DNA from: Nibricoccus aquaticus
GTDB lineage: Bacteria > Verrucomicrobiota > Verrucomicrobiia > Opitutales > Opitutaceae
Length of the DNA stretch: 64,000 nt
NCBI RefSeq assembly: GCF_002310495.1
Contig: NZ_CP023344.1
Location: 1,984,001 to 2,048,000, forward strand
Reading direction: 5' to 3'
Shown: positions 11,382 to 37,855 of the stretch, one piece after another
Position numbering within the stretch: position 1 is the stretch's first letter
How the letters are laid out: each line of letters begins with the position of its first letter
Notes under the pieces: generated by a model
Database searches by the model: none
What the model was told of the DNA's origin: nothing
Seen by the model: only the letters and a program-made list of their open reading frames with translations
Program-made: the position numbers and the translations under genes

Positions 11382-12371
11382 CTAGACATCGCTCGCGCAT
11401 CGGAACCCGATGTTCGTCGTGCTCGTGTCGGCGCCGTTGCGATTGCGCGCATCCACCCGGTACCGGTTGCAGTAACTCGCGTGGCAAAGATAACTCCCGC
11501 CACGCATCACCCGCTCGTTCCCCTTTTCCGGCCCCGCCGGATTTTCCCTCGGTGACACACGATAATACCCCGCGCCGAACCAGTCCGCGCACCACTCCCA
11601 GACATTCCCCGTCATCTGATAAAGCCCGTACGCGTTCGGCCTGAAACTCTGCGCCGGCGCCACGCCCGCATGCCCGTCCGCCGCCGTGTTCTTCGACGGG
11701 AAAACGCCCTGCCACACATTCATGCGATGCCGCCCTTCCGGCTCCAAGACATCGCCCCAAGGAAAACGATTCCCCGCCGGCAACCCGCCCCGCGCCGCAA
11801 ACTCCCACTCCGCCTCCGTCGGCAGCCGCTTCTTCACCCAAGTCGCATACGCGACCGCATCGTTCCACGAGACATGCACGACCGGATGCTTCCAGCGTTG
11901 CTTGATGTTTGACCCCGCACCCTCCGGATGCCGCCAAGTCGCCCCATCCACCCGGCACCACCACTCGCTCCCGCGCACCACACCACGCACCGCGCTCGCC
12001 AGCTGCTTCGCGCTGAGATCTCCCTCAAAAACAAAACTCCACCCAAAACGCTCCGCCTCCGTCTTGTAGCCCGTCGCATTCACGAAATCGTTGAACTGCT
12101 CGTTCGTGACCGTCGTCGCATCGAGGTAAAACGGCGCCACCGTCACCGCATGCACCGGCCCTTCTCCATCCAGCGGGAAACCATAGTCGCGCTCGTTGCC
12201 CATTAAAAAATCCCCGCCCGGGATCAGTTTCATTCCCGACGTATTGGCATTCCGGGCACGCTTTCCCGGCAACTCTCCGCCGCCAGCCGGTTCCACTGCC
12301 GCCGATTCGCCGCGCGCCGGTGCGCAACAGCCCTTGGCTTTTTGCCCATCGGCGGCGGCAGAGGATTCCAT
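11382..12371 (-). CDS. Formylglycine-generating enzyme (sulfatase-modifying factor)
   Basis: This 329-residue enzyme oxidises the active-site cysteine of type I sulfatases to C-alpha-formylglycine. The FGE-sulfatase fold is clear: GGDFLMGNERDYGFPLDGEG, VTNEQFNDFVNATGY, RLPTEAEWEFAARGG and GNVWEWCADWFG. The C-terminal segment carries Cys296 and Cys301 in GGSYLCHASYCNRYR, the two metal-binding catalytic cysteines of true FGEs, so it is a functional maturase rather than a generic SUMF1-fold protein. The N-terminal 45 residues include a CC pair and look unstructured. It is the last gene of the operon, 15 bases after the sulfatase stop, which gives a matched enzyme-maturase pair. Confidence 0.93.
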   Translation of the reverse strand: MESSAAADGQKAKGCCAPARGESAAVEPAGGGELPGKRARNANTSGMKLIPGGDFLMGNERDYGFPLDGEGPVHAVTVAPFYLDATTVTNEQFNDFVNATGYKTEAERFGWSFVFEGDLSAKQLASAVRGVVRGSEWWCRVDGATWRHPEGAGSNIKQRWKHPVVHVSWNDAVAYATWVKKRLPTEAEWEFAARGGLPAGNRFPWGDVLEPEGRHRMNVWQGVFPSKNTAADGHAGVAPAQSFRPNAYGLYQMTGNVWEWCADWFGAGYYRVSPRENPAGPEKGNERVMRGGSYLCHASYCNRYRVDARNRNGADTSTTNIGFRCASDV

Positions 12372-12386
12372 AATTACGCGCGCACC

Positions 12387-13889
12387 TTACGGCGCCGGCT
12401 CCGCCTGATCGCGCACATGCGCTTTCACGAGCGCCGCGAGTTCAGTCACGACTTCGCGATAACGCGGATCGCCCACGAGATTTTTCAACTCGTGCGGATC
12501 GTTCTTTGGATCGGTGAGAAACGCGCCGGGATCGCGACCGAAAAATTCGGCGTAGCGCCACTTCTCCGTACGCACCGCCACGCCGGTCACGCCACGGTCG
12601 CGCTCGTTCCAGACGGTGTACGCGGGCTTGTCCCACGCAGCCTCCGGATCGTCCAGCAGCGGCGTGAGATCGGCTCCATCGAGTCCGTCTGGAACCGGCA
12701 GTTTTGCGAGCGCCGCGAGCGTCGGGTAAAGATCCACCGACTGCACGATGCGCGTGGAGGCACAGCCATTTCCTTTCGCACGCGGATCGTGGATGATCAG
12801 CGGAACCCGCGCGCCCTGCTCCCACAACGAGCCCGCCTTCGACCACTTGCCCTTCTCGCCGAGCTGATAGCCGTGATCGCTCCAGAAAACGACGATCGTC
12901 GATTCGCGCAGACCGAGTTTATCGAGTTCTGCGAGCACGCGTCCGACGTTCCAATCCACGTACGACACGCACGCGAGATACGCGCGGATGTACGCCTTGG
13001 CCTCCTCCGGTGTCGCATCGCGTCGCACGAAAAGGTCCGCGTTATTGGGCCGGATCGAGCCGTTCGGAAACCCTTCGGGCACGGTGGGCCGCGGTGCGAA
13101 ATCGACCGGTAGCGTGATGCTTTCGAGCGGGTACTTGTCGAAGAACTCCTTCGGCGCGACCAGCGGGCTGTGCGGTTTCGAAAATCCGCACGCCAGGAAA
13201 AACGGCGCGTCAGCCTGTTTCCACCGCCGCAAATGTTCGATCGCCCGGTCCGCGACGCGCGTGTCACCCTGCGTGGCGACCGCCTCGCCTTCGACGGCTT
13301 CCCAGCGATCGGAACTCCTCGCTCGCGTGAGGTCGCCGGCTGCGATTTGTTGAGTGTGCTTTTGCTGTTCCGTGTCGGTCACGGCCCGAGCGCCGATCGG
13401 TGTCAGCGTTTGTTTTCCGTAGGCGTGTGGCTCTCCGCCCTCCGTCCAGGCCTCGAAATCGTCGATGTTGCCGTGGAAAACTTTTCCGGTGCGCAGAGTT
13501 TGATAGCCATGCGCCTTGAAGTATTTCGGCAGGCTCACCAAGTCCGGGTAAACGCCGTTGAACCAGTTGCGATTACTATAAAGCCCGGTCGTGGTCGGAT
13601 AACGCCCGATGAGCATCGAGGTGCGCGACGGATTGCACAGCGGATACTGGCAATAAGCGTTTTCGAAACGCACGCCTTGCGCGCCAAGCCGGTCAATGGC
13701 CGGCGTCTGCGCGAGCGGATGTCCGTAGGAGCCGAGGTCCGTGCGCAAATCGTCCGAGAGGATGAAAAGCACATTGAGCGGACGCTCAGTGCCAGTCGCG
13801 GCCGCCACCCGTTCGGCGGCAGGCAGCGTGCCCAAGGCGGCGCCAAACGCGGCCGCCGTGGTGGTGAGAAGTGACGTCAGTTTGTTCAT
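12387..13889 (-). CDS. Type I (Cys-type) sulfatase, iduronate-2-sulfatase-like
   Basis: The 500-residue exported sulfatase begins MNKLTSLLTTTAAAFGAALG, a signal peptide; I place the start at 13889 because upstream in-frame sequence overlaps the receptor gene. Metal ligands are in FILSDDLRTDLG (Asp46, Asp47). The active-site motif is LCNPSRTSMLIGR with Cys85 as the formylglycine precursor. FWSDHGYQLGEKGKWSK carries the C-terminal metal ligands. The CQYPLCNPSR context resembles the iduronate-2-sulfatase/S1_7 group, so a sulfated polysaccharide is a likely substrate. It sits 4 bases after the TonB receptor gene and 15 before the maturase. Confidence 0.93.
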   Translation of the reverse strand: MNKLTSLLTTTAAAFGAALGTLPAAERVAAATGTERPLNVLFILSDDLRTDLGSYGHPLAQTPAIDRLGAQGVRFENAYCQYPLCNPSRTSMLIGRYPTTTGLYSNRNWFNGVYPDLVSLPKYFKAHGYQTLRTGKVFHGNIDDFEAWTEGGEPHAYGKQTLTPIGARAVTDTEQQKHTQQIAAGDLTRARSSDRWEAVEGEAVATQGDTRVADRAIEHLRRWKQADAPFFLACGFSKPHSPLVAPKEFFDKYPLESITLPVDFAPRPTVPEGFPNGSIRPNNADLFVRRDATPEEAKAYIRAYLACVSYVDWNVGRVLAELDKLGLRESTIVVFWSDHGYQLGEKGKWSKAGSLWEQGARVPLIIHDPRAKGNGCASTRIVQSVDLYPTLAALAKLPVPDGLDGADLTPLLDDPEAAWDKPAYTVWNERDRGVTGVAVRTEKWRYAEFFGRDPGAFLTDPKNDPHELKNLVGDPRYREVVTELAALVKAHVRDQAEPAP

Positions 13890-24636: not shown

Positions 24637-25088
24637 ATCTTCCGCTCAACACGAAGCGGATAAAACGCCCCCGGCCCTTCCTCGCTAAAGCAGCTCAAAT
24701 AAAGCGACGGCCGTACTATGGAGAGACAACCTCCGCGTGGGCCACGCTCAGCACGATGCCCGGCTCGCATCCACACGGCCACGACTTTTCCGAAAAGGCC
24801 ATAACCCCCGCCTCCTGATCGTCCGCCCCACTCCTGTCATCAAAATTGATGACAAGACGCCCCGCGCGCGCGCGACTATAGTCCGCCCCGCAAAAGTCCC
24901 CCTGCCCCGCGCTCACTGACACGGCCCGCTCAACCGACGTCCCTCCGTCGCCACCCAGGCCCGCCTCAATCCCGCTCCCGTTTCGCCTCATCGTCCCCGC
25001 ACGCTTCGCGGTCGCGATGCGCGCTCAACGACGAGCGCCCCCCCCCGGATTGAGCCCACGTACCGCCCACCGGCCCCCTCCCTTTATT
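24637..25088. other. 450-bp intergenic gap before the pectin island
   Basis: I see no convincing gene. A degenerate copy of the GGAGAGAC/CTCCGCGT palindrome lies at about 24717-24748. The rest contains an alternating CGCGCGCG run (about 24865-24875) and a C-run near 25030-25040. The promoter of the large pectinolytic gene should be here, but no strong consensus is visible. Confidence 0.5.
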
Positions 25089-28000
25089 ATGAAAATCCCC
25101 GCCCTCCTCCGCAGCCTCCTACTTCTCGGAACTGCCCTCCTCGTCGCCCAACCCGCCCACGCCGCCACCACGCTCCTCGACGACTCCTTCGCCGACGCCA
25201 ACAGCCAGAACCAGGCCCTCGCCAGCAACTCCGCTTGGCTCTTCAACGGCCGCGCCGCCCACACCCGCACCGACACCGCCGGCTCCGTCTCCTTCGCCGT
25301 CACCTCCAGCAGCTCCGACGGCTTCTGGGCCCACTTCACCGACAGCGCCAGCCCCGTCACCCTCGCCGTCGGCGACCAGCTCACCGTCAGCATGACCTTC
25401 TCCGTCACCGGCCTCGTCGGTACCGGCCAGGACATCCGTTTCGGCGTCTTCGACAGCAAAACCACTCGCAACACCGCCAACCTCACCGGCGGCATGAACA
25501 GCACCACCGTCTTCCCCGACGACACCGCCTACGCCCTCCAATTCTACGCCAGCGGCACCGGCAGCCCCTTCGTCGCCTATAAACGCGTAGCCCCCGGCAC
25601 CACCGGCATCACGTCCTCCGGCAACCCCTTCAACACCCTCGCCGCCACCGACTGGACCCCGCTCACCGACTCCTCTTCCGGCGCCACCGCCCGCACCGCC
25701 CTCTCCAACTCCACGCCCTACACCCTCACCTACAGCATCACCCGCGTCGACGCCTCCAACACCCGCATCGACGCCGCCGTCACCGGAGGCTCCCTCTCCA
25801 ATTACACTTGGACCGCGACCGACACCTCCGCCCCGTACACGACATTCGACATGATGGCCTTCCGCATCGGCGGCAGCGGCTTCTCCACCGGCATCGCCTT
25901 CACCAACGTCAAAGCCATCTACACCCCCGCCCTCCCCGTCATCACCGCCCAGCCCACCTTCACCGGCGGCGTGACCACCCTCTCCATCGGCACCGGCGGC
26001 ACCACCACCCTCTCCGTCACCGCCACCGGCTCCGCCCTCACGTATCAGTGGAAAAAGGACGGCAACGCCCTCTCCGGCGCCACCGCCTCCACCCTCGCCC
26101 TCGCCAACCTCCAGATCGCCGACTCCGGCGCGTACACCGTCGATATCACCAACGGCGGCGGCACCGTCCCCAGCTCCGCCGCGAATCTCACCGTCACCAG
26201 CGGCTCCGTGAATCCCCCGCCCGTCATCGGCACGCACCCCGCCAGCCAGAATCTCCTCAACGGCGCCAACATCACCCTCACCGTCACCGCCACCGGCAAC
26301 GCCCTCACCTACCAGTGGAAGAAAAACGGCGCCGACATCTCCGGCGCCGCCACCGCCTCCCTCGCGCTGACCAACCTCCAGCCCTCCGACGCCGCCAGCT
26401 ACACCGTCACCGTCAGCAACGACGGCGGCGCCGTCACCAGCAACCCCGCCCTCCTCGGCGTCCTCAGCCCCGCGCTCACCTTCGCCTCCGCCTCGCCCTC
26501 CGCCGGCACACTCGTCAACCCCGACACACCCCTCACCCTCACCTTCGCCTCCGCCCCATCTTTCGGCACCTCCGGCACGATCAAAATCTACGACGCCTCC
26601 AACGACTCCGTCGTCGACACCATCGACATGGCCAGCACCGCCGTGACCGGAAATCTCTCCTACCTCTCCGGCGTCCCCTACCAGACCAAAACCGTCGGCG
26701 GCCTCACCAGCGTCAACTACTACCCCGTCATCCTCTCGGGAAACACCGCCAAGATCTACCCGCGCAACGGCTCCCTCGCGTACAATAAAACTTACTACGT
26801 CCGCATCGACCGCGGCGCGTTCAAAGACGCCCAGGGCGACTTCGCCGGCATCGCCAACAACACCACCTGGACATTCGCCACCAAGACCGCCGCCCCCGCC
26901 CTCGGCACGCTCGTCACCGTCGCCGCCGACGGCTCCGGCGACTTTAACACCGTCCAGGGCGCCCTCGATTTCGTCCCCGCCGGCTCCACCGCCCGCACGA
27001 TCTTCATCAAGAACGGCACCTACTTCGAACAGATCTATTTCACCGGTCGCAACAACCTGACCCTCCTCGGCGAAAGCGCTGACAACACCGTCATCGTCTA
27101 TCCCACCAACAACACCTTCAACAACGTCTCCTCCGGCAGCTACCGCCGCGGCACCGTCCTCGCCCAAAGCGTCAACGGTCTCGTCCTCGCCAACTTCACC
27201 ATCCGCAACAGCACCCCGCAAAACGGCTCCCAGGCCGAGGCGCTCATCGTCAAGGGCTCCGCCACCACCGGTCGCAACCTCGCCACCCGCCTCAAACTCT
27301 ACAGCTACCAGGACACGCTCCAGGTCGATGGACAGTTCTACATGTCCGACTCCTACATCGAGGGCGACGTGGACTTCCTCTGGGGCAACGGCCCGAGCTT
27401 CTTCCGCAACTGCGAAATTAAGAGCCTGCTGCGTGCAAACAACAACGCGCCTGTCGTCGCTCAGGTCCGCAACAGCGCCGGCAACCACGGCTTCGTCTTC
27501 CAAGCCTGCCGCTTCACCGCCTCCGCCGGCGTAACCGGCGGTTTTCTCAACCGCATCGATCCAAGCTCCGCCCAGTACCCCAACTGCGAAATGGTCCTCC
27601 TCGATTCCATCATTGGCGATGCGACTAATAACAATTTCCTGAATACAAACGTCGGCACCTCCGGCTCCAACTACTTCACCGGTTGGTGGCAGCTCAACAA
27701 CGTCGCCGCAGACGTCGCCACCGTCCACCACTGGGATAACAACTCCGTCGATAAGGACGGCGCCCCCGTCACCTTCGCCCCCCCGCCCGCCTCCCGCCCC
27801 GCATCCACCATCATGCCCGTGGACACCACCACCCAGGCCAACTACCGCGACGCCTTCTGGGTGCTCAACACCACCATCACCGGAGCCGCCACCGCCGGCA
27901 CCTGGACCCCCGCCCTCTCCCCGCTCTTCCTCACTCACCCCGCCGCCGCCTCCGTCAACGCCGGCCAGCCCGTCACGCTGACCGCAACCACTGCCGCCAT

Positions 28001-31000
28001 CCCGTCCGCCACGTATCAGTGGAAAAAAGACGGCACCGACATCTCTGGCGCTACCAGCGCGACCTACACGATCGCCTCCGCCGCCGCGGGTGACACCGGC
28101 ACCTACACCGTCGTCGCCACCAACGCCTCCGGCTCAACCACCAGCAACCCCGCCACCGTCACTGTCGCTGGTGGCGTAGTCGCGCCCACCATCACCACGC
28201 ACCCCGCCAGCCAGAACGTCTCCGCCGGCACCAACGTCACCTTCACCGTCGCCGCCACCGGCACCACCCCCTTCACCTATCAATGGAAGAAAGGAGGCAA
28301 CGACATCTCCGGCGCCACCTCCGCCTCGCTGCTCCTCTCCGCCACCACGCTTGCTGACTCCGGCACCTACTCCGTCGTCGTCACCAACTCCGCCGGCTCC
28401 GCCACCAGCAACGCCGCCACCCTGGCCGTCAACGGCCTCGCGGGCATCTCCACACCCGACGGCTTCGCCGCCACCGTCACCGGCGGTGCCGCCGGGCCGA
28501 CTGTCACCGTCACCACCGCGTCCGCCCTTCGCCAATACGCCGAAGCCGCCGCGACGAGCCCCTACGTCATCATCGTCTCCGGCACGATCGACCTCGGTGC
28601 CGCCGGCCGTGTGAACGTGAAATCCAACAAAACCATCAAAGGCGAAAACACCGCCTCCACCATCCTCGGCACGCTCACCATCAGCAACGCCACCAACGTC
28701 ATCGTCTCCAACCTCCACGTCTCCGCCAACACCGGCGCCGCCGCGGAAAACGACGGCATCACCATCGCCGCCTCCACTTACGTCCTCGTCACCAAGTGCA
28801 CGATCTACGATTGCACCGACGGCAACCTCGACGTCATCAACGGCTCCGACTTCGTCACCGTCTCGTGGTGTAAATTCTACTACACCCGCAACAACGGCCA
28901 CAACTTCTCCAACCTCATCGGCTCCGCTGACGACGACCTCGGTGCCGGCGGCCAGTACCGCGTCACCTGGCATCACAACTGGTGGTCCACTGGCGCCATG
29001 CAGCGCATGTTGGCCTGCCGCTTCGGCGGCGCCCACATGTACAACAATTACTGGGACTGCTCCGGCAACGACTACGCCACCGAGTCCCGCAACACCGCCG
29101 AGATGCTCTCCGAGCACAACTCCTACAACGGCGTCAAAAACCCCCTCGCCAAACGCACCGCCCTCCCCGTTGACCAGAGCAAGCTGATGACCATCGGCAA
29201 TCTCTTCACCAACTGCACCGGCACCCAGGCGACCAGCGCCGACGCCATCTTCAGCCCGCCCTATTCCTACCCGCTCCTCGACGTGAACAACGTCGCCGCC
29301 CTCGTCCAGGCCGGCGCGGGTAACGTCGCCATCGACGCCCCCGCCTCCCTCGGTTCCGCCACGATCACCGGCTCCACCTCCGTCGTCACCGGTGCCAGCG
29401 TCACCTTCACCGCCGCGCCCACCGGCTTCACGCCCGCCTCCTACCAATGGCGTTTCAAAAACGCCGCCATTTCCGGCGCGACCTCGGCGACGCTCGCGCG
29501 CCCCAACGTCCAGAGCACCGACGCCGGAGCCTACACCGTCGTCCTCGGCCTCCCCGGCGGCGGCTACATCGTCAGCACCCCGCTGACCCTCGCCGTCACC
29601 GCCGCGCCGATACCGCCGGCAATCACGAGTCAACCCGCCTCGCTGACCGTGAGCATCGGCAGCTCCGCCGCCTTCAGCGTCACCGCCACCGGTACCGGCC
29701 TCTCCTACCAATGGAAAAAAGCCGGCGCTAACATCAATGGAGCCACTGCGGCGACCTACACTATCGCCACCGCCGCGCTGACCGATGCCGCCAGCTACAC
29801 CGTCACCGTCACCAACACCGCCGGCTCCGTCACCAGCAACGCCGCCACCCTCATCGTCGCCCCCGCCTTCGCCGCGCCCGCCCCCGGCGGATACTCCACC
29901 GGCACCACCGGCGGCGGCAGCGCCACCCAGTCCGTCGTCACCACCGCCGCCGACTTCCGCACCCAAGCAGAGTCCACCACCGCCGCCGTCATCACCGTCT
30001 CCAGCACGCTCAACCTCGGCTCCACCAAAGTCGCGGTGAAATCCAACAAAACCATCCAGGGCCTCGACGCCAACAGCACCCTCATCGGCAACCTCGAACT
30101 CGCCTCCGGCGTTTCCAACGTCGTCCTCCGCGGCCTCAACCTCACCAACCCCGCCGGCGACGCCCTCACCCTCACCGGCGCCACCGGCGTCTTCATCTCC
30201 CACGTCACCTTCTTCGACTCCTCAGACACCCTCCTGCGCATCGCCGCCGGCACGGACAACATCACCATCTCCTGGTCCGAGTTCTACTACTCCACCAGCC
30301 ACTCCGGCCCCCGCCGCGCCCTCCTCATCGGCGCAGCCACCGGCGAAACCAAAGCCCTCCGCGTCACCCTCGACCACAACTGGTTCGCCGACCGCGTCGA
30401 CCAGCAGCAACCCGACTCCACCTGGGGCCAGGTCCACGCCTACAACAACTACTTCAACCCCGCCGGCACCGCCAACACCTCCGGCTCCATCGCCCGCGCC
30501 AGCGCCCAGTTCCTGTCCGAAAGAAACCAATACACCAGCATCGTCAGCCCGCTCACCAAAACCGGCGGCGGCCTCATCCGCACCATCGGCAACGCGTACA
30601 CCACGACCACCGGCACCGCGGCCGACGCCGGCACCGACACCGTGTTCACACCGTCGTACTCCTACCACCTCCACACCACCGCCGACGTCCCCGCCCTCCT
30701 CCTCGCCGGTGCGGGCAACACCGCCGGCGGCGCCTCCGCCACGCTCAGCGCGGCCTCCGCGTCAATCAACGCCAGCGCCACCACCGTCACCGCCGGTTCC
30801 TCGTTCACGCTGACCGCCTCGACCTCCATCTCCGCCGTCACCAGCTGGCAATGGCGCCTCAACCACACCGACATCCCCGGCGCCACCAGCCAGTCGTACA
30901 CCGTCAGCAGCGCCCAATCCGCCAACGCCGGCACCTACACCGTCGCCGCCCTGCAAGTCACCGGTGAAGCCGTCATCAGCACTCCCGTCACCCTCACCGT

Positions 31001-31121
31001 GAACCCAGCCCCCCTTCCCCCACCTGCCAAGACCGGCGGTGGTGGCGGCTCGCCCTCCCTGTGGTTCTTCGGTGCCCTCGCACTGCTCGCCAGCCTGCGA
31101 AATTTCAAAAAATCTGTTTAG
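25089..31121 (+). CDS. Giant exported pectin methylesterase-pectate lyase fusion with Ig-like modules
   Basis: This 2,010-residue protein has a signal peptide (LLRSLLLLGTALLVAQPAHA). Domains in order: N-terminal beta-rich region (25-270), two Ig-like (280-458), SbsA-like Ig (460-602), CE8 pectin methylesterase (606-945), two Ig-like (945-1115), PL1 pectate lyase 1 (1119-1417), two Ig-like (1415-1593), PL1 domain 2 (1597-1877), Ig-like (1883-1972) and a C-terminal tail. The esterase keeps QDTL (about 740) and GDVDFLWG (about 758). Lyase 1 keeps DGNLD (1244-1248) and Arg1306/Arg1311. Domain 2 has DTLLR (1713-1717) and QQPDST (1773-1778), so the Ca2+-ligand Asp and catalytic Arg are gone. The tail has GGGGG, a SPSLWFFGALALLASL helix and basic end. 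It heads a pectin-degrading cluster; I start at 25089 for the signal peptide. Confidence 0.9.
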   Translation: MKIPALLRSLLLLGTALLVAQPAHAATTLLDDSFADANSQNQALASNSAWLFNGRAAHTRTDTAGSVSFAVTSSSSDGFWAHFTDSASPVTLAVGDQLTVSMTFSVTGLVGTGQDIRFGVFDSKTTRNTANLTGGMNSTTVFPDDTAYALQFYASGTGSPFVAYKRVAPGTTGITSSGNPFNTLAATDWTPLTDSSSGATARTALSNSTPYTLTYSITRVDASNTRIDAAVTGGSLSNYTWTATDTSAPYTTFDMMAFRIGGSGFSTGIAFTNVKAIYTPALPVITAQPTFTGGVTTLSIGTGGTTTLSVTATGSALTYQWKKDGNALSGATASTLALANLQIADSGAYTVDITNGGGTVPSSAANLTVTSGSVNPPPVIGTHPASQNLLNGANITLTVTATGNALTYQWKKNGADISGAATASLALTNLQPSDAASYTVTVSNDGGAVTSNPALLGVLSPALTFASASPSAGTLVNPDTPLTLTFASAPSFGTSGTIKIYDASNDSVVDTIDMASTAVTGNLSYLSGVPYQTKTVGGLTSVNYYPVILSGNTAKIYPRNGSLAYNKTYYVRIDRGAFKDAQGDFAGIANNTTWTFATKTAAPALGTLVTVAADGSGDFNTVQGALDFVPAGSTARTIFIKNGTYFEQIYFTGRNNLTLLGESADNTVIVYPTNNTFNNVSSGSYRRGTVLAQSVNGLVLANFTIRNSTPQNGSQAEALIVKGSATTGRNLATRLKLYSYQDTLQVDGQFYMSDSYIEGDVDFLWGNGPSFFRNCEIKSLLRANNNAPVVAQVRNSAGNHGFVFQACRFTASAGVTGGFLNRIDPSSAQYPNCEMVLLDSIIGDATNNNFLNTNVGTSGSNYFTGWWQLNNVAADVATVHHWDNNSVDKDGAPVTFAPPPASRPASTIMPVDTTTQANYRDAFWVLNTTITGAATAGTWTPALSPLFLTHPAAASVNAGQPVTLTATTAAIPSATYQWKKDGTDISGATSATYTIASAAAGDTGTYTVVATNASGSTTSNPATVTVAGGVVAPTITTHPASQNVSAGTNVTFTVAATGTTPFTYQWKKGGNDISGATSASLLLSATTLADSGTYSVVVTNSAGSATSNAATLAVNGLAGISTPDGFAATVTGGAAGPTVTVTTASALRQYAEAAATSPYVIIVSGTIDLGAAGRVNVKSNKTIKGENTASTILGTLTISNATNVIVSNLHVSANTGAAAENDGITIAASTYVLVTKCTIYDCTDGNLDVINGSDFVTVSWCKFYYTRNNGHNFSNLIGSADDDLGAGGQYRVTWHHNWWSTGAMQRMLACRFGGAHMYNNYWDCSGNDYATESRNTAEMLSEHNSYNGVKNPLAKRTALPVDQSKLMTIGNLFTNCTGTQATSADAIFSPPYSYPLLDVNNVAALVQAGAGNVAIDAPASLGSATITGSTSVVTGASVTFTAAPTGFTPASYQWRFKNAAISGATSATLARPNVQSTDAGAYTVVLGLPGGGYIVSTPLTLAVTAAPIPPAITSQPASLTVSIGSSAAFSVTATGTGLSYQWKKAGANINGATAATYTIATAALTDAASYTVTVTNTAGSVTSNAATLIVAPAFAAPAPGGYSTGTTGGGSATQSVVTTAADFRTQAESTTAAVITVSSTLNLGSTKVAVKSNKTIQGLDANSTLIGNLELASGVSNVVLRGLNLTNPAGDALTLTGATGVFISHVTFFDSSDTLLRIAAGTDNITISWSEFYYSTSHSGPRRALLIGAATGETKALRVTLDHNWFADRVDQQQPDSTWGQVHAYNNYFNPAGTANTSGSIARASAQFLSERNQYTSIVSPLTKTGGGLIRTIGNAYTTTTGTAADAGTDTVFTPSYSYHLHTTADVPALLLAGAGNTAGGASATLSAASASINASATTVTAGSSFTLTASTSISAVTSWQWRLNHTDIPGATSQSYTVSSAQSANAGTYTVAALQVTGEAVISTPVTLTVNPAPLPPPAKTGGGGGSPSLWFFGALALLASLRNFKKSV

Positions 31122-31523
31122 TCGCGAGCACCTTCCTCACCCCTACGTACCTCTCGAAAAAGAAGCGCGCCCACAACTCACCCAAGGCTCCGGACACTTC
31201 CCGTTTCCAACCAAGCGATTAACACCGCTTACCACCCCGATCCCGGCCACCAGTTCGTTGCCCCGCATATCCGCCCGCCTTCGACAAAGCCCCGCACCTG
31301 CAACCTCCCCGCACTTGACAGCTAAAAAAGATGAGAACACCTCTTGTGCGTTCTTATTCTCGGTCGGCCTACCCTGCTGACTGATTATCCCGTTCCTTCC
31401 CTTCTTAGTGTCCGTAGACCCGCCACGCGGAAAGAGTCACCACCCCTCTTTTTATCGGCGAGTCCAGTTTGCCCCTCTTCCTGCACATGCAGGGGCGTCA
31501 CCACCAGTAAACCAACGTCCCGT
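31122..31523. other. 400-bp intergenic gap
   Basis: No gene is seen. A TTGACA box is at 31315-31320, followed by an A-rich stretch (CTAAAAAAGATGAGAAC), a possible promoter for the next pectinolytic gene, but no good -10 box follows at 17 bases. The region from about 31300 is less GC-rich than the flanks. Confidence 0.45.
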
Positions 31524-34358
31524 ATGTCCCTCCTCCGTCGTCTCAGTGGTCGTGTCTCTGCGTCCACGCTTCTCGCGCTGACCGCGACTTCTCTAGCGCT
31601 CGCGCAAACCCCCGTCACTGTCTTCAACGACACCTTCGCCGGGGGCAGCACCGTAAACTCCAATCCTACGTCGCCAGCCAACCCATCTCTGGGAACCGCT
31701 GCCTATCAGGTAATCTCGGGCCAAGCCTTTGCCTCTGGCACCCCTCAGATTGTCGCCCCCGCCTCTGGTCAACCCGGAGCGCTGCGCTTGGGCTTAAACT
31801 CCACCGGAGCAGCGAGCTTTTCCGAGGCTCAGGCGATTTTTTCGCGTTACGCCGTCAAGCTGGCCAACCTCAACGACTACATTGAGGCACAGGTCACCTT
31901 CACCGCTGAAACGGCCCTCTTGGAGGACGGCAACAACGGCGTCTTTTTTGGCCTTTTCAATTCCAGCTCCGTAGCCCCGAGCAGCGCAATCGCGTTGGAA
32001 GATCCCGTCATCAGCCAGCCCCTCCCGGGCGGCAGAGACAACTCCACGGCTACTCTCGCAGGCTACGCAGCCGTTTGGAGGGGTTATGTGTCCAGAATCT
32101 GGGGTAACACAGGAGGCACTGCGCAATACCGCGTTTACACGAGGACTCCCCAAACCGGCGGCTTCAATCAAGAGGTGCTCGCGACAACCGGAACCGCGAT
32201 TGTTTCGAGCCCCGCCTCAACGTTTACGCCCTTACTCGCTGGATCACAATACACCGCCGTCATTCGTTTCACCAAAACGAACACGGATGCCGCTCCACGT
32301 ATCACCGTCACCACAGCCATGTACCCTGGCGCCACCGCCACCGGTACTCCGTTGGGTAACGGTATCCTTACCGTGCAGGCCAACACCGGTAGCCAGCACA
32401 TGGGCTTGGTGTACGACGCTTTTAGCTTCGGTTTCAGAACGGCTACCAACGCCAGCGGAGGTTTGCGCGTGATGGCGATTAACTCGATCGACATCAAAAC
32501 GACCGGCCGGACCGTGATCGTCCCCGTCATCACCACCCAGCCCCAGAGCCAGACCGTGATCGTCGGCGACCCAGCTACCCTCAGCGTCGTCGCCTCCGGT
32601 GGCGGCGATACAGCTGGCACCCTCTCCTATCAGTGGAAAAAGAACGGCATGGACATCACCGGCGCTACCGGAAGCTCCTACGCGATTCCCGCCACCATCT
32701 TCGGCGACGCCGGCAACTACACCGTTACCGTCACCAACTCCATCGGCAGCACCACCAGCTCCACCGCGATTCTAGCAGTCAATCCTCCCGCTCCTCCCTC
32801 CATCACCTCCGATCCTGCCAACCAGACCGCCGTCAGCGGCGGTCCTGCGACATTCTCCGTCACCGCAGTCGGCAGCGGCCTCACCTACCAGTGGCAAAAG
32901 AGCTCCGATAACGGTGCCTCCTTTAGCAACATCGCCGGTGCGACAACCGCCACCTACACCATCACCCGCACTCAGACCTCCTCCATCGGCCAGTACCGCG
33001 TCGTGGTGACCAACTCCACCGCCGCAGTCACCAGCGCCGCCGCCACCCTCAGCCTCACCTATAACTTCTCTGGCATCGCCCCCAGCGGCTACGCCGCTTC
33101 GGCCACCGGCGGCGGCAGCGCCGCAGCCGTCACCGTGACAACTGCGGCCGACTTCAAGACCCAGGCTGAATCCACCGCCGACGCCGTCATCACGGTCCAA
33201 GGCACGCTCACCCTGCCCGCCAAAGTCAGCGTGAAGTCCAACAAGACCATCCAAGGCATCGACGGCGAGGCCACCCTCATCGGTAACCTCGAACTCGCCA
33301 GCGGCGTTTCCAACGTCGTCATCCGCGGCCTGAATATCACCAACCCAGCCGGCAACGGCATCACCATCACAGGCGCGTCCAAAGTCTACATCAACCACGT
33401 CTCGTTTTATAACTGCAGCGACACCTTGCTCGCGATCACTGGTGGCGCCGATAACGTGACCGTCTCATGGAGCGAATTCTACTACACCGCCCTCGCTGCC
33501 GGTAACAAAGCAGTCCTGGTCGGTGCGACCGGCGAAACCAAGCCCCTCAGTGTCACCTTCGATCACAACTGGTGGTCGGATAACATCGCCACCCACATGC
33601 CCGAGACCACCTACGGCCGCGTGCATATGTACAACAACCTGTTCCGCACCGAGGCCGGCACCCCGATGGGTAACACCACCGGCACGCTCGTCCACGCCAA
33701 CGCCCAGCTGTTCTCCGAGCGCAACCAGTACACCGCCATCACCGCTCCCCTCACCAAGGAAGCCGCCGCCATCGGCCTCGTCAGGGCAATCGGCGACTCC
33801 TACACGGCAGCGACTGGCACGGCCGTTTATGCAGGCACGGACTTCATCACCTTCGCGCCTCCATACTCCTATCAATTGATCCCCACCACCTCCGTCGCCG
33901 CCGACATCTCGGCCAGCGCAGGTAACACCGCCGGTGCCTCCACCACCACGCCAGCCCCGGTCGGCACCGCGTCCGTTACATCCACAGCCACCACCGTCCC
34001 ACTCGGCGGCTCCTTCACGCTGTCTGCCGTGACCACCGGCCTCAACGTTGCCCCGGCCACCCCGGTGCCTCCCTACCAGTGGCGCCTCAATGGTACGCCG
34101 CTCGGTACGCCAACCGCCGACCCCACGTTCACCATCAACGGAGCGACCGGCTCCAACACCGGTAACTTCACCGTCGCCGTCCTCCTGGCGACCGGTGAGA
34201 CCATCGTCAGCACGCCGATCACCATCGCCGCCAGCTCAGGCAGCTCCACCGTCCCCAGCAGCAGCTCCGAAGCTGCCGGCGGCGGCGGCGCTCCCTCCCT
34301 CTGGTTCTTGGGCGCACTGACGTTCCTCGCCGGACTCCGCCGGTTCTTCCGCCGCTAA
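31524..34358 (+). CDS. Exported Ig-like/PL1 pectate-lyase-fold protein (active site not conserved)
   Basis: The 944-residue protein has a signal peptide (SASTLLALTATSLALAQ). A 300-residue N-terminal beta-rich region follows, then two Ig-like domains (about 330-510) with VITTQPQSQTVIVGDPATLS, a PL1 domain (about 515-800), an Ig-like region and a C-terminal tail (GGGGAPSLWFLGALTFLAGL then RRFFRR). The PL1 fold is close to domain 2 of the preceding protein. It has DTLLAI (Asp633, Ala637) where Asp-x-x-x-Asp binds calcium, and HMPETT (691-696) where RxPxxR is expected. It is likely a binding or scaffold protein rather than a lyase. Codon usage is more relaxed than in the adjacent genes. Confidence 0.87.
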   Translation: MSLLRRLSGRVSASTLLALTATSLALAQTPVTVFNDTFAGGSTVNSNPTSPANPSLGTAAYQVISGQAFASGTPQIVAPASGQPGALRLGLNSTGAASFSEAQAIFSRYAVKLANLNDYIEAQVTFTAETALLEDGNNGVFFGLFNSSSVAPSSAIALEDPVISQPLPGGRDNSTATLAGYAAVWRGYVSRIWGNTGGTAQYRVYTRTPQTGGFNQEVLATTGTAIVSSPASTFTPLLAGSQYTAVIRFTKTNTDAAPRITVTTAMYPGATATGTPLGNGILTVQANTGSQHMGLVYDAFSFGFRTATNASGGLRVMAINSIDIKTTGRTVIVPVITTQPQSQTVIVGDPATLSVVASGGGDTAGTLSYQWKKNGMDITGATGSSYAIPATIFGDAGNYTVTVTNSIGSTTSSTAILAVNPPAPPSITSDPANQTAVSGGPATFSVTAVGSGLTYQWQKSSDNGASFSNIAGATTATYTITRTQTSSIGQYRVVVTNSTAAVTSAAATLSLTYNFSGIAPSGYAASATGGGSAAAVTVTTAADFKTQAESTADAVITVQGTLTLPAKVSVKSNKTIQGIDGEATLIGNLELASGVSNVVIRGLNITNPAGNGITITGASKVYINHVSFYNCSDTLLAITGGADNVTVSWSEFYYTALAAGNKAVLVGATGETKPLSVTFDHNWWSDNIATHMPETTYGRVHMYNNLFRTEAGTPMGNTTGTLVHANAQLFSERNQYTAITAPLTKEAAAIGLVRAIGDSYTAATGTAVYAGTDFITFAPPYSYQLIPTTSVAADISASAGNTAGASTTTPAPVGTASVTSTATTVPLGGSFTLSAVTTGLNVAPATPVPPYQWRLNGTPLGTPTADPTFTINGATGSNTGNFTVAVLLATGETIVSTPITIAASSGSSTVPSSSSEAAGGGGAPSLWFLGALTFLAGLRRFFRR

Positions 34359-34417: not shown

Positions 34418-34730
34418 ATTCTCCACGCGCCGCCCCGCGATTCCCCCGCACCCGTCAACGATGCGTGCAACGCCCCCGTTGCAGCCCGCCACGCGCGAAG
34501 CACAAACCTCCTCCCGTCAGCCGCGCCACCCCACTTTCGCGCTCCCGCTGACCGCCCACCCCGGCGTCGTTCTTTCGCTGCTTTCTCACCCCGCTTGGTT
34601 TCTCACCCCGCAACCGCCCGCCAAGGCTGCTGCGCGCGCGAAGCGTTCCCCCGGCCCGCCCCCAACCCCTGATCCGATGCTCAACCGCTTCGCACGGGCA
34701 CTCCGTCCGCGCGCACCCACCCCAAACGTT
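34418..34730. other. Intergenic leader region of the next PL1 gene
   Basis: About 310 bases lie between the terminator and the chosen ATG (34731). The frame is open through much of this, but the sequence is basic and proline-rich with no signal peptide, so I treat it as untranslated. An ATG at 34677 is a possible but poorer start. Confidence 0.45.
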
Positions 34731-35648
34731 ATGCACCTCCTCCAAACTCCGCTCGCCCGCATCCTCGCACTCGCCCTCCTCTGCCTCGCCCCTCACGTCG
34801 CCTCCCACGCCGCCGACGGCTACGGCCGCAACACCACCGGCGGCGGCTCCGGCACCACCGTCACGGTCACCACCGCCGCCCAGCTCAAAACCTACGCCGA
34901 ATCCACCACCGCCTATAACATCATCGTCTCCGGCACCATCGACGCCGCCGCCACCGGCTCCTCCGTGAAGGTCAAATCCAACAAAACCATCAAGGGCGCC
35001 AACACCTCCGCCACCATCAAGGGATGCCTCGATCTCGGCAGCGGCGGCGTGAACAACGTCATCATCCAGAATCTCAACATTACCAACCCCTCCGGCGATG
35101 GCGTCACCTGCTGGGGCGCGACCAACGTCTTCTGCACCAAGGTTAACTTCTACGACTGCGGCGACGGCTCCTTCGACATCTCTCAAGGCGCCAGCAAGGT
35201 CACCGTCTCCTGGTGCAAATTCTCCTACCCCACCCAGAGCGCGCATCGTTTCGCCATGATTCTCGGCAACGTCGACGTCTCTCAAAATTACGAGACCACA
35301 CTGCATCACAACTGGTTCGCCGCCCGCTGCGATCAGCGCATGCCCTCCGGCAGCTACAGCATGGCGCACGTCTACAACAACTACTTCAACGCCACTGGTA
35401 ACAGCTACTGCACCAACGCCCGCGCCGGCTCCAACTGGATCGCCGAAAACAACTACTACCAGAGCGTGAAGAGCCCGCTCTACGAAGAGGGCGGCGGCAA
35501 AATCAAATCCTCCGGCAACACCTTCGCCAGCTGCACCGGCCTCATCAACGTCGCCACCGGCACCGGCTTCACCCTGCCCTACGGCTACACGCTCGACCCC
35601 ACCGCCAACGTTCCGACGCGCGTCCAAAACGGCGCCGGCAACCGCTGA
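34731..35648 (+). CDS. Secreted PL1 pectate lyase
   Basis: The 305-residue enzyme has a signal peptide (LARILALALLCLAPHVASHA) and a single PL1 parallel beta-helix domain. This eliminates across polygalacturonate using calcium. Conserved features are ADGYGRNTTGG, VKSNKTIKG, DGSFD (Asp145, Asp149), VTVSWCKFSY and QRMPSGS (Arg203). The first, catalytic Arg is kept but the second (expected at 208) is Ser. Cysteines are common in the mature part. It has the same length as the PL1 gene at 36938. It lacks Ig modules and a C-terminal tail, so it should be freely secreted. Confidence 0.9.
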   Translation: MHLLQTPLARILALALLCLAPHVASHAADGYGRNTTGGGSGTTVTVTTAAQLKTYAESTTAYNIIVSGTIDAAATGSSVKVKSNKTIKGANTSATIKGCLDLGSGGVNNVIIQNLNITNPSGDGVTCWGATNVFCTKVNFYDCGDGSFDISQGASKVTVSWCKFSYPTQSAHRFAMILGNVDVSQNYETTLHHNWFAARCDQRMPSGSYSMAHVYNNYFNATGNSYCTNARAGSNWIAENNYYQSVKSPLYEEGGGKIKSSGNTFASCTGLINVATGTGFTLPYGYTLDPTANVPTRVQNGAGNR

Positions 35649-35723: not shown

Positions 35724-36869
35724 GTGATCCACTCAGCCCTCCCCATTATCCACCTCCTGCGCCTCACCGCCGTTATCACGGGCATCGGTGTATCCATCGT
35801 CTGCGCACGCGCTGAGGCCGTCAGCACCGCGACTCCACTCACCACCGAAGCCCTCTCCTTCGACCGCATCGCCACGACCGATCTCCCCGCTCTCAAAAAC
35901 TCCCTCGAAAAAGCCGGCTGGCCCGACTCCCACATCCGCGCGCTCCTCGGCCTCGAAGTTCAGCGCCGTCTGAATCCCGAGCCCGTCCTCCGCTTTGAGG
36001 ATCTGAAACCGTTTCACTTCTGGCACACCGGCCCCGATTCCCTGCCCGTCAGCAATCTCAACACACCCGAACTCGTCAAAGCCCGCACCGCGCGCGAGGA
36101 ACTCGTCCGCGCCAAATACGACGAACTCTTCCCCCACGCCGAAACCGAGACCGGCCTCCTCGACCGCTGGGAAGAACAACGCCGCTGGGGCGATCTCCCC
36201 GCCGATAAACGCGCCCAGGTCCTCGCCCTCCTCGACCGCTCCGCCCGCGCCCGCGACGACTTCCTCGAATCCCGCGGCCGCATGCTCAACCCCCAGGAAT
36301 GGGAAACCCTCTGGCAGACCAACCACGACACCCGCCGCCAGCTCGAACAACTCCTCACCGCCGACGAGCTCCTCGACTACGATCTCCGGAATTCGAATAC
36401 AGCCGCCCGCATGCGCAACGAGCTCGATGCCTTCGCTCCCACGCGCGACGAGTTCATCGCTGTCTTCCGTCTGCGTCACCCGCTGGAACTCGCCTTCGAG
36501 GACAAACCGCACGGCGGCGATCCCGCCATCGACGCCCAACGCGAGGCCGCCGAAAAATCCGCGCTCGAAAAAACCGCCGCACTCCTCGGCCCCGCACGCT
36601 TCGACGACTACCTCATCAGCCTCGATCCCGTCTGCCAGACTTTGCGCTTCGACGGCCGTCACGCGCGCACCGATGCCGCCACCGTCCGCCGCCTCTATCG
36701 ATCCTTCCTCAACGCGAAACAACGCCTCGCCAGCCTCGACACCCAACCACTCCCCGAACGCGAAGCCGCCGCCACCTCCCTCAAGGCCGGCATCCACCGC
36801 GAATTCCGCACCGTTTTCGACGAAGAAGCCACCCGCCGCTTCCTCCAGGAACAATCCCTCTGGCCCTGA
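35724..36869 (+). CDS. Uncharacterised exported helical protein
   Basis: The 381-residue protein has a GTG start and an N-terminal signal or anchor (LLRLTAVITGIGVSIVCARA). The remainder is charged and predicted mostly alpha-helical. Markers are WPDSHIRALLGLEVQRRL, ELLDYDLRNSNTAARMRNEL and RDEFIAVFRLRHPLE. I recall similar unnamed proteins in Verrucomicrobia but know no function. It lies between two pectate lyase genes, 75 bases after one and 69 bases before the next ATG, all on one strand, so it is probably co-expressed with the pectinolytic genes. Confidence 0.7.
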   Translation: MIHSALPIIHLLRLTAVITGIGVSIVCARAEAVSTATPLTTEALSFDRIATTDLPALKNSLEKAGWPDSHIRALLGLEVQRRLNPEPVLRFEDLKPFHFWHTGPDSLPVSNLNTPELVKARTAREELVRAKYDELFPHAETETGLLDRWEEQRRWGDLPADKRAQVLALLDRSARARDDFLESRGRMLNPQEWETLWQTNHDTRRQLEQLLTADELLDYDLRNSNTAARMRNELDAFAPTRDEFIAVFRLRHPLELAFEDKPHGGDPAIDAQREAAEKSALEKTAALLGPARFDDYLISLDPVCQTLRFDGRHARTDAATVRRLYRSFLNAKQRLASLDTQPLPEREAAATSLKAGIHREFRTVFDEEATRRFLQEQSLWP

Positions 36870-36937
36870 TCGCCACCCCGCTTTCACCGGCACCCGCCGG
36901 TCAGAAAATCCAACCCCACAACTCAACCCTACCCCAA

Positions 36938-37855
36938 ATGAAACTACCCCACCTAAAACTCGCCCTCGCCTTCCTCGCCGCCTGCGCCGCGCCCGTTCTT
37001 TCCGTCGCTGCCGACGGCTACGGTCGCTCCGCCACCGGCGGCACCGGCGGCGCCAACGTCACCGCCACCACCGCCGCTCAGCTAAAAACCTACGCCGAGT
37101 CCGCCACCACCTACACGATCACCGTCTCCGGCACGATCGACCTCGGGGCCAGCGGCCGCGTGAACCTCAAATCCAACAAAACCCTCAAGGGCGCCAACGC
37201 CTCTGCCACCATCAAAGGCACCATCAACCTCAGCAGCGTTAACAACGTCATCATCCAAAACCTCAACGTCACCGCCAACACCGGCGAACCCGCCTCCAAC
37301 GACGGCATCTCCGTCAACGCCTCCACCAACGTCTTCATCACCAAGTGCACCATCTACGACTGCACCGATGGCAACCTCGATATCGCGAAGGGCTCCGACA
37401 ACGTCACCGTCTCGTGGTGCAAATTCTACTACACCCGCAACAACGGCCATAACTTCTCCAACCTCATCGGTTCCTCCGACACCGACACCGGCGGCTACCG
37501 CCACACCTGGCATCACAACTGGTGGTCCACCGGCTGCAAACAGCGCATGCTGGCCGACCGCTTCGGCCCCTGCCACATGTATAACAATTACTGGAACTGC
37601 GCCGGTAACGACTACTGCACCACCGCTCGCAACGTCACCCAGATGCTCAGCGAGAACAATTACTACGACGGTGTGAAGAACCCCCTCGACAAGCAGAACA
37701 GCGGCAAGCTCAAGACCTCCGGCAACGTCTTCAACAACTGCACCGGCACCATGGTCACGAGCAACGACAGCGTGTTCACGCCCACCTACGGCTACACACT
37801 CGACACCGCCGCCAACGCCAAGACCCGCGTCCTCGCCGGCGCCGGCAACCGCTGA
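36938..37855 (+). CDS. Secreted PL1 pectate lyase
   Basis: The 305-residue enzyme begins MKLPHLKLALAFLAACAAPVLSVAA (signal peptide), followed by ADGYGRSATGG and a PL1 domain. It keeps the calcium site DGNLD (Asp144, Asp148) and both active-site arginines in RMLADR (Arg203, Arg208), with HMYNNYW next. It is therefore expected to be an active pectate lyase. It closely matches PL1 domain 1 of the giant protein (for example TVSWCKFYYTRNNGHNFSNL), so one probably arose from the other by duplication. I start at 36938; the long open frame upstream is out-of-phase code of the preceding gene. Confidence 0.93.
   Translation: MKLPHLKLALAFLAACAAPVLSVAADGYGRSATGGTGGANVTATTAAQLKTYAESATTYTITVSGTIDLGASGRVNLKSNKTLKGANASATIKGTINLSSVNNVIIQNLNVTANTGEPASNDGISVNASTNVFITKCTIYDCTDGNLDIAKGSDNVTVSWCKFYYTRNNGHNFSNLIGSSDTDTGGYRHTWHHNWWSTGCKQRMLADRFGPCHMYNNYWNCAGNDYCTTARNVTQMLSENNYYDGVKNPLDKQNSGKLKTSGNVFNNCTGTMVTSNDSVFTPTYGYTLDTAANAKTRVLAGAGNR

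Follow-up and report, generated by a model that had tools for sequence, protein, structure and literature searches.

What becomes of an enzyme fold once its catalytic residues are gone? The question is raised by a 64-kb window of the Nibricoccus aquaticus genome (the whole stretch analysed, 64,000 nucleotides of contig NZ_CP023344.1, positions 1,984,001 to 2,048,000), in which the open reading frame (ORF) list and Pfam place five polysaccharide lyase family 1 (PL1) domains, D1 to D5, in four genes. Two of them, D2 in a giant protein and D3 in the gene downstream, have lost calcium ligands and active-site Arg residues, and the initial annotation of the window suggested that they may be binding modules derived from lyases. 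Our reading, to which we give a probability of about 0.52, is that D2 and D3 are dead PL1 folds serving as the non-catalytic section next to the tag in a C-terminal display module that can be reused. Sequence comparison assigns both domains to a clade associated with a C-terminal tail that resembles a sorting signal, which goes beyond the earlier view. Loss of lyase activity is well supported by the sequences, whereas a pectin-binding role is only partly supported.

Residue losses and fold retention

Five columns were read in each domain, namely calcium ligands 1, 2 and 3, the catalytic Arg (Arg1) and a second Arg (Arg2), and they were fixed by aligning the domains with HMMER to PL1 enzymes of solved structure, D1 being placed on 3zsc and D3 on 7bbv. 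In the latter alignment, GNGITI of D3 lies over GDAIGI, DTLLAI over DGLLDI and HMPETT over RNPSVR. D1 and D5 read DDDRR, D2 reads DDRQT and D3 reads NDAHT, and the motifs and coordinates initially given for all five domains were right; D4, the gene at 34731, does keep the first Arg and has Ser at the second (DDDRS). The losses of calcium ligand and Arg claimed for D2 and D3 were upheld by the alignment to solved enzymes, with a refinement at the calcium site: the second Asp of the DxxxD motif is gone from both domains, and the first is retained in both. D3 has also exchanged the upstream calcium-ligand Asp, which we take to be residue 184 in BsPel and 131 in PelC, for Asn, a change absent from the earlier list.

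The residues of Bacillus subtilis Pel are described as Asp223, Asp227, Lys247, Arg279 (the base) and Arg284, and the base of PelC as Arg218 (PMC10992409). With the catalytic base, Arg2 and calcium ligands lost from a fold that persists, D2 and D3 are probably without lyase activity. This loss, predicted in the initial annotation, is well supported by the residue changes, with the qualification that Arg (D2) or Lys (D3) stands at the gap-sensitive column of Lys247.

The two domains are not exceptional, because seven further paralogs in the same genome carry related losses. A search of the 4.73-Mb genome with PF00544 returned 19 matches, 13 of which belong to the subfamily of D1 to D5 (the six outside it are 106k, 1972k, 2287k, 2288k, 2419k and 3870k). 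Beyond the window, the calcium site is complete in 1675kA (DDDRR), 1675kB (DDDRT) and both 1712k and 2276k (DDDST, with both Arg gone), and calcium columns are changed in 4588k (DDERS), 1671k (DDKNT), 1652k (NNKNT) and 755k (TGTRT). All five tested residues are kept in three of the 13 domains, D1, D5 and 1675kA. Graded states, from DDDRR through DDDRT, DDDST and DDRQT to NDAHT, coexist as paralogs in one genome.

Nonsynonymous divergence (dN) was lower than synonymous divergence (dS) in all 14 pairs compared by NG86. Omega ranged from 0.19 to 0.53 for the 12 non-intact pairs (0.28 for L073/L075; 0.53 for D2/D3, a value that is likely saturated) and was 0.19 and 0.30 for the two intact pairs. 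A lone sequencing error was rejected as the source of the substitutions, given the open frames, the related losses in the seven other domains and dN below dS.

The erosion goes further in 15 domains from six genomes, called fully degenerate here, in which two of the three calcium columns are deleted, the Arg1 column holds Asp (11), Asn (3) or Ala (1), and the Arg2 column holds Thr (14) or Ser (1); core residues are nevertheless conserved across the 15 sequences. None of the 15 was found by a PF00544 search (E ≤ 1e-5) of nine genomes that hold all of them. Two of these genomes, G002 (complete) and G099 (68% complete), gave no PF00544 match whatever at this threshold; G002 nevertheless has four degenerate domains and G099 three, and degenerate copies are the only ones they carry. 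Absence of PF00544 in Pfam scans of long proteins is an unsafe sign, as such a scan missed it in L085, where the genome search found it.

The PL1 fold appears to survive these losses. D3 matches PF00544 with 59.6 bits (cut-off 24) and 7bbv with an E-value of 7.6e-21, and its AlphaFold2 model (pLDDT 92.4, pTM 0.92) has VIA-align Z scores of 36.9 with 7xks, a pectate lyase, and 31.5 with PelC (2pec). L073, a fully degenerate copy, was modelled with pLDDT 85.1 and pTM 0.84 (other four models 63.7-76.8) and has Z scores of 28.8 to 7bbv and 24.6 to 2pec, all VIA-align scores being a re-examination of Foldseek match lists. D3 is thus predicted to be a clear PL1 beta-helix, and the models indicate that the fold is retained even in L073.

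The degenerate clade and its C-terminal tail

A profile of D2 and D3 matched 19 of 200 genomes of the family, taken as Opitutaceae, at E ≤ 1e-10; because the search started from degenerate domains, it under-represents intact PL1s from elsewhere. Fifty domains were placed in a tree that omitted the five active-site columns, and in it 36 tagged domains and L100, which is cut off, form a clade of 37 rows from one family (bootstrap/SH-aLRT 85/90). D2 and D3, whose shared sequence had been remarked on at the outset, are 61% identical and pair as sisters (99/88), their nearest neighbours being 1712k and 2276k (99/92). D1, D5, 1675kA and five relatives in other genera make up an intact group (96/98), beside which D4 branches (85/82), and D1 is 74% identical to L094, an untagged PL1 of a different genus. 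Residue losses accumulate stepwise along the tree.

The clade is marked by its position. Tail status was assigned to the rows by hand, and in all 36 clade members with a readable C-terminus the domain lies upstream of a Gly-rich, hydrophobic and basic tail. None of the 11 intact rows (all five residues present) is the last domain before a tail, as against 36 of the 38 non-intact rows with a known C-terminus, the exceptions being D4 and L037. D1 and 1675kA do sit in tailed proteins, yet in each a degenerate copy stands nearer the tail. None of the 36 tagged domains retains Arg2. Four other PL1s judged intact by eye (L192, L194, L198 and L199, from the PF00544 search of the nine genomes) have no tail in the stretch read; in L198 (3713-aa frame) and L199 (3675-aa frame) a tail match lies about 8 kb downstream, not directly after the PL1.

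At the column of Lys247, Phe is found in D1, D5 and the other six members of the intact clade. These sequences (28443-29324, 37010-37852, L086 3148-4005, L093-L096 and L101) share a GHNFSNLIG-like motif in which Phe replaces the Lys conserved in solved enzymes. Given this Phe, the intact-looking clade might differ in mechanism or substrate.

Most tails of the tagged clade resemble GGG(A/S)PSxWF and are tripartite (Gly-rich, hydrophobic, basic) at the extreme C-terminus. A profile built from 19 tails and applied at a loose threshold (E ≤ 5) matched the tails of the giant protein (E 7.5e-16) and of the D3 gene (E 8.5e-15), each of them itself a row of that profile. It found ten tails in the window's genome, nine in frames with a degenerate PL1, all nine being profile rows and hence recovered by construction. 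Outside this genome the profile also picked up tails that had not gone into it, 60 in G045, 37 in G050, 21 in G002 and 9 in G009 at the same loose threshold. The tenth (4023k; L164, G000 4022900-4026400) is in a frame without PL1, with NHL-like repeats and a HELGHALGLDH motif by eye. NHL-like repeats, again by eye, stand directly upstream of many PL1-less tails among L143-L182 and may be another recurring tag-proximal domain. An Ig domain alone was rejected as the constant element, since among 27 PL1-less tailed frames NHL-like repeats stand before many tails and an Ig match before others. In L167 (G050 2699000-2703500), L156 and L175, the open frame continues beyond a GGGG-type tail into a long sequence that by eye resembles a TonB-dependent receptor, which could reflect fused genes, read-through or an overlap of genes.

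Two rhombosortases are encoded in the window's genome (TIGR03902, 120.9 and 109.9 bits; cut-off 84). One of them, with GLSG and His226, is end to end with the degenerate-PL1 gene 2276k, 126 bases apart including stop codons; the window's own genes have no such adjacency. In G009 (C59) a rhombosortase (12308-12772) comes after a PL1-less tail (12041-12145, E 9.2e-4), and no tail-rhombosortase neighbours occur among the matches listed for G045 and G050. Rhombosortases occur in eight of the nine genomes with the module and in 99 of 191 others, a weak association (Fisher p 0.039) based on hand-read counts. Haft and Varghese described one GlyGly-CTERM gene of Opitutus terrae beside its rhombosortase, and considered divergent tags conceivable in a verrucomicrobial genome that has a rhombosortase and no recognised target (PMC3237569). 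As to export, type II secretion is represented in the window's genome by T2SSE, T2SSF, T2SSK and a secretin, the best GspD match scoring 273.6 bits, below the TIGR02517 cut-off of 351.35; T2SSK is present in eight of the nine genomes carrying the module.

Relatives outside the family are scarce. The first search of a wider contig collection with the D2 and D3 profile gave no relative. The alignment of the fully degenerate domains, used on wider contigs, gave nine loci, eight from Opitutaceae and one from Alteromonadaceae (23% identity). The corresponding profile, run on 387 genomes of the phylum (E ≤ 1e-8), matched two genomes outside the family, at L104 and L105. L105 resembles an ordinary PL1 by eye. 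L104 (G466), which belongs to a different family of the class, retains the calcium site and Arg1 and has Ser at Arg2, like D4; no tail was seen in the part read, though the frame runs off the locus, and beyond its PL1 come repeats that by eye resemble those of autotransporters.

Within the window (Table 1), the giant protein runs from Ig-like domains through a pectinesterase (CE8), Ig, D1, Ig, D2 and an Ig-like domain to the C-terminal tail. The D3 gene has an ATG at 31524 with a signal-peptide-like start (start and signal peptide judged by eye), and its product has an N-terminal region, Ig, D3, an Ig-like domain and the tail.

Table 1. Positions within the window of the genes, domains, tails and substituted codons considered here.
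Feature	Position	Strand	Reading or basis
Giant protein, 2034-aa open frame	25017..31121	+	ORF list, Pfam
Pectinesterase PF01095, giant protein residues 633-838	26913..27530	+	101.9 bits, cut-off 27
D1, active-type PL1	28443..29324	+	DDDRR; column reading, alignment to 3zsc
D2, degenerate PL1	29865..30719	+	DDRQT; column reading
D2 calcium ligand 3	30237..30239		Asp to Arg
D2 catalytic Arg	30405..30407		Arg to Gln
D2 second Arg	30420..30422		Arg to Thr
Linker and Ig-like domain, D2 to tail	30720..31034	+	
C-terminal tail of giant protein, GGGGGSPSLWFFGALALLASLRNFKKSV	31035..31118	+	Gly-rich, hydrophobic, basic
D3 gene, open frame	31344..34358	+	ORF list, Pfam
D3, degenerate PL1	33066..33926	+	NDAHT; column reading, alignment to 7bbv
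D3 calcium ligand 1	33354..33356		Asp to Asn
D3 calcium ligand 3	33432..33434		Asp to Ala
D3 catalytic Arg	33594..33596		Arg to His
D3 second Arg	33609..33611		Arg to Thr
Linker and Ig-like domain, D3 to tail	33927..34277	+	
C-terminal tail of D3 gene, GGGGAPSLWFLGALTFLAGLRRFFRR	34278..34355	+	
D4, PL1 without tail tag	34812..35645	+	DDDRS; open frame 34461-35648
D5, PL1 without tail tag	37010..37852	+	DDDRR; open frame 36299-37855

Possible roles of the degenerate domains

Type II secretion systems export PL1 pectate lyases as cargo. In the display module proposed here, a degenerate PL1 beta-helix is followed by Ig-like sequence and then by a GlyGly-CTERM-like tail. D2 and D3 would be inactive on pectin, a rhombosortase would cleave the tail, and type II secretion would carry the tagged proteins through the outer membrane. 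The beta-helix would act as a folded stalk or as an export determinant that keeps N-terminal enzymes or other heads off the membrane, and the tail would fix these large proteins to the bacterial surface. The job of the beta-helix may be that of a stalk, an export signal or a ligand site, as the sequence leaves all three possible.

Several steps of this scheme have counterparts in Vibrio cholerae. VesB is described as being cut by rhombosortase and as depending on type II secretion for its delivery to the surface (PMC6219818). Tag and rhombosortase are reported to suffice for membrane association in this species, and the crossing of the outer membrane by VesB to need a second secretion signal, its Ig fold (PMC13393428). 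By analogy, the dead beta-helix together with the Ig domain could be an escort that the type II machinery recognises, so that unrelated giant proteins are exported and are then retained at the surface by the tail; we regard this version as rather doubtful. The type II secretion signal of Pel3 is described as a composite of several distant loops (PMC7949064).

A number of observations weigh against the display module. Arg1 is still Arg in six of the 36 tagged domains (seven if L074 is read by the other alignment), and these could be active. The support of the 37-row clade is moderate, and the Fisher p of 2.7e-9 for residue state against tail exaggerates the association, since it takes no account of the common descent of the tagged domains, which form a single clade. 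The spacing between domain and C-terminus is variable: 32 proteins have 133-257 aa, L070 has 325 aa and L097-L099 have 591-598 aa. Only four of ten submitted tails were reported by the GlyGly-CTERM model TIGR03501, at 8.3, 13.5, 10.4 and 11.4 bits, all under the cut-off of 15.5; the D3 tail is the one with 8.3 bits, and the D2 tail was not listed. Tails of L065, L066 and L068 (G009) read GGGGACG rather than PSxWF. Nor does the tail need a degenerate PL1, because most tails of G045, G050 and G002 sit in other proteins (domain-bearing proteins account for 5 of 60, 6 of 37 and 4 of 21 tails, respectively, and for at most 4 of 9 in G009), and constant pairing of domain and tail was rejected on this ground. 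Finally, rhombosortases above the cut-off occur in 107 of the 200 family genomes and are common without the module. The Cys of the G009 tails, for its part, recalls MYXO-CTERM tags.

The degenerate domains might instead be carbohydrate-binding modules, with a non-catalytic cleft that continues to bind pectin or some other plant polysaccharide and so tethers the cell or its enzymes to fibre. Such a role would be in keeping with the retained PL1 fold, with the pectinesterases of three tagged proteins in the window's genome, and with the precedent of chitinases described as having no activity and still binding chitin (PMC6223089). The heads of the tagged proteins point elsewhere. Pfam was run on 28 of the 36 (L077, L081, L089, L090, L092, L097, L098 and L099 being left out), and it shows RCC1-like propellers in L065, L070, L076, L079 and L091, NHL and YCF48-like repeats in L066, BspA leucine-rich repeats (LRR) in L068, a calcineurin-like phosphoesterase in L071, L073 and L075, laminin-G in L062 and L074, Big, cadherin or fn3 domains in L064, L084 and L085, MBG in L067 and L069, and Ig only in L083, L087 and L088. 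A pectinesterase is present in three of the 28 (the giant protein, L082 and L086, all from the window's genome) and absent from the other 25. Because the heads vary and so few carry a pectinesterase, the module does not appear, on sequence grounds, to be tied to pectin; heads in other genera are unrelated to it, L063 having only a weak GH30 match just below the cut-off.

Charge also disfavours a polyanionic ligand. Mean net charge goes from -1.9 in eight intact domains to -5.9 in the nine tagged domains of the window's genome and -9.3 in the 15 fully degenerate ones, with a wide spread within groups. Lys plus Arg declines over the same groups from a mean of 19.8 per domain to 14.2 and 9.2, and the old catalytic Arg position is Asp in the 11 fully degenerate copies mentioned above. 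The lack of any PF00544 match in G002 and G099 argues in the same direction, and on balance we consider a binding module unlikely.

It is improbable that D2 and D3 are still lyases that work through other residues, by a calcium-independent, pectin-lyase-like or Lys-base mechanism. The column of Lys247, Phe in the intact clade, holds Arg in D2 and Lys in D3, as counted back from the IG motif, and Lys is described as the base in families PL3 and PL9; the Arg of D2 at calcium ligand 3 also recalls pectin lyase B, in which Arg176 is said to replace calcium (PMC10992409). However, the column is gap-sensitive and is Tyr in the sister domains 1712k and 2276k. Moreover, pectin lyase B is described as retaining its catalytic Arg236 (PMC10992409), in place of which D2 and D3 have Gln and His, and the second Arg is lost from both as well. 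That D2, D3 and their like are roleless relics drifting after duplication, as the stepwise losses along the tree might suggest, is least probable of all in view of the open frames, dN below dS in every pair, the core residues conserved in the 15 fully degenerate sequences and a position before the tail that is kept across genera.

Relation to known systems

If the display module is real, an enzyme fold has been converted into a portable display part. The recruitment of type II substrates has been called elusive (PMC7949064), and if the export machinery does read the dead fold, comparison of the 36 tagged copies could reveal the surface that acts as a type II secretion signal. There is also a practical side: because just three of the 13 subfamily domains of this genome keep the five tested residues, proteins annotated as pectate lyases in Opitutaceae should be counted as pectinases only after their Arg and Asp residues have been checked. 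No paper describing a module of degenerate PL1 and tail was found in a literature search, which did not cover most subscription journals.

The closest relatives of D3 in fold and sequence are the enzymes of the PL1 family (PelC, BsPel and TmPelA; PF00544), from which D2 and D3 differ in the loss of the catalytic Arg, the second Arg and calcium ligands. PfbA, a surface adhesin of Streptococcus pneumoniae (3zpp, 4mr0), is likewise a beta-helix, with a Z score of 20.4 to D3; it comes from a Gram-positive bacterium and is a distant structural match, compared by structure alone. Pel3 and PelI are catalytically active enzymes of family PL3 and, to our knowledge, carry no GlyGly-CTERM-like tail. These type II-secreted pectate lyases resemble the proteins described here in that a lyase stands beside an Fn3 domain (PMC7949064). 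The GlyGly-CTERM and rhombosortase system (TIGR03501, TIGR03902), as represented by VesB, shares with the present proteins the tripartite tail and a rhombosortase, which here is encoded in the genome and adjoins one of the genes, and in VesB too an Ig fold is described before the tag (PMC13393428). The proteins reported here differ in that their tails score under the TIGR03501 cut-off and that a degenerate PL1 fold precedes the Ig domain; the passenger of VesB is an active protease.

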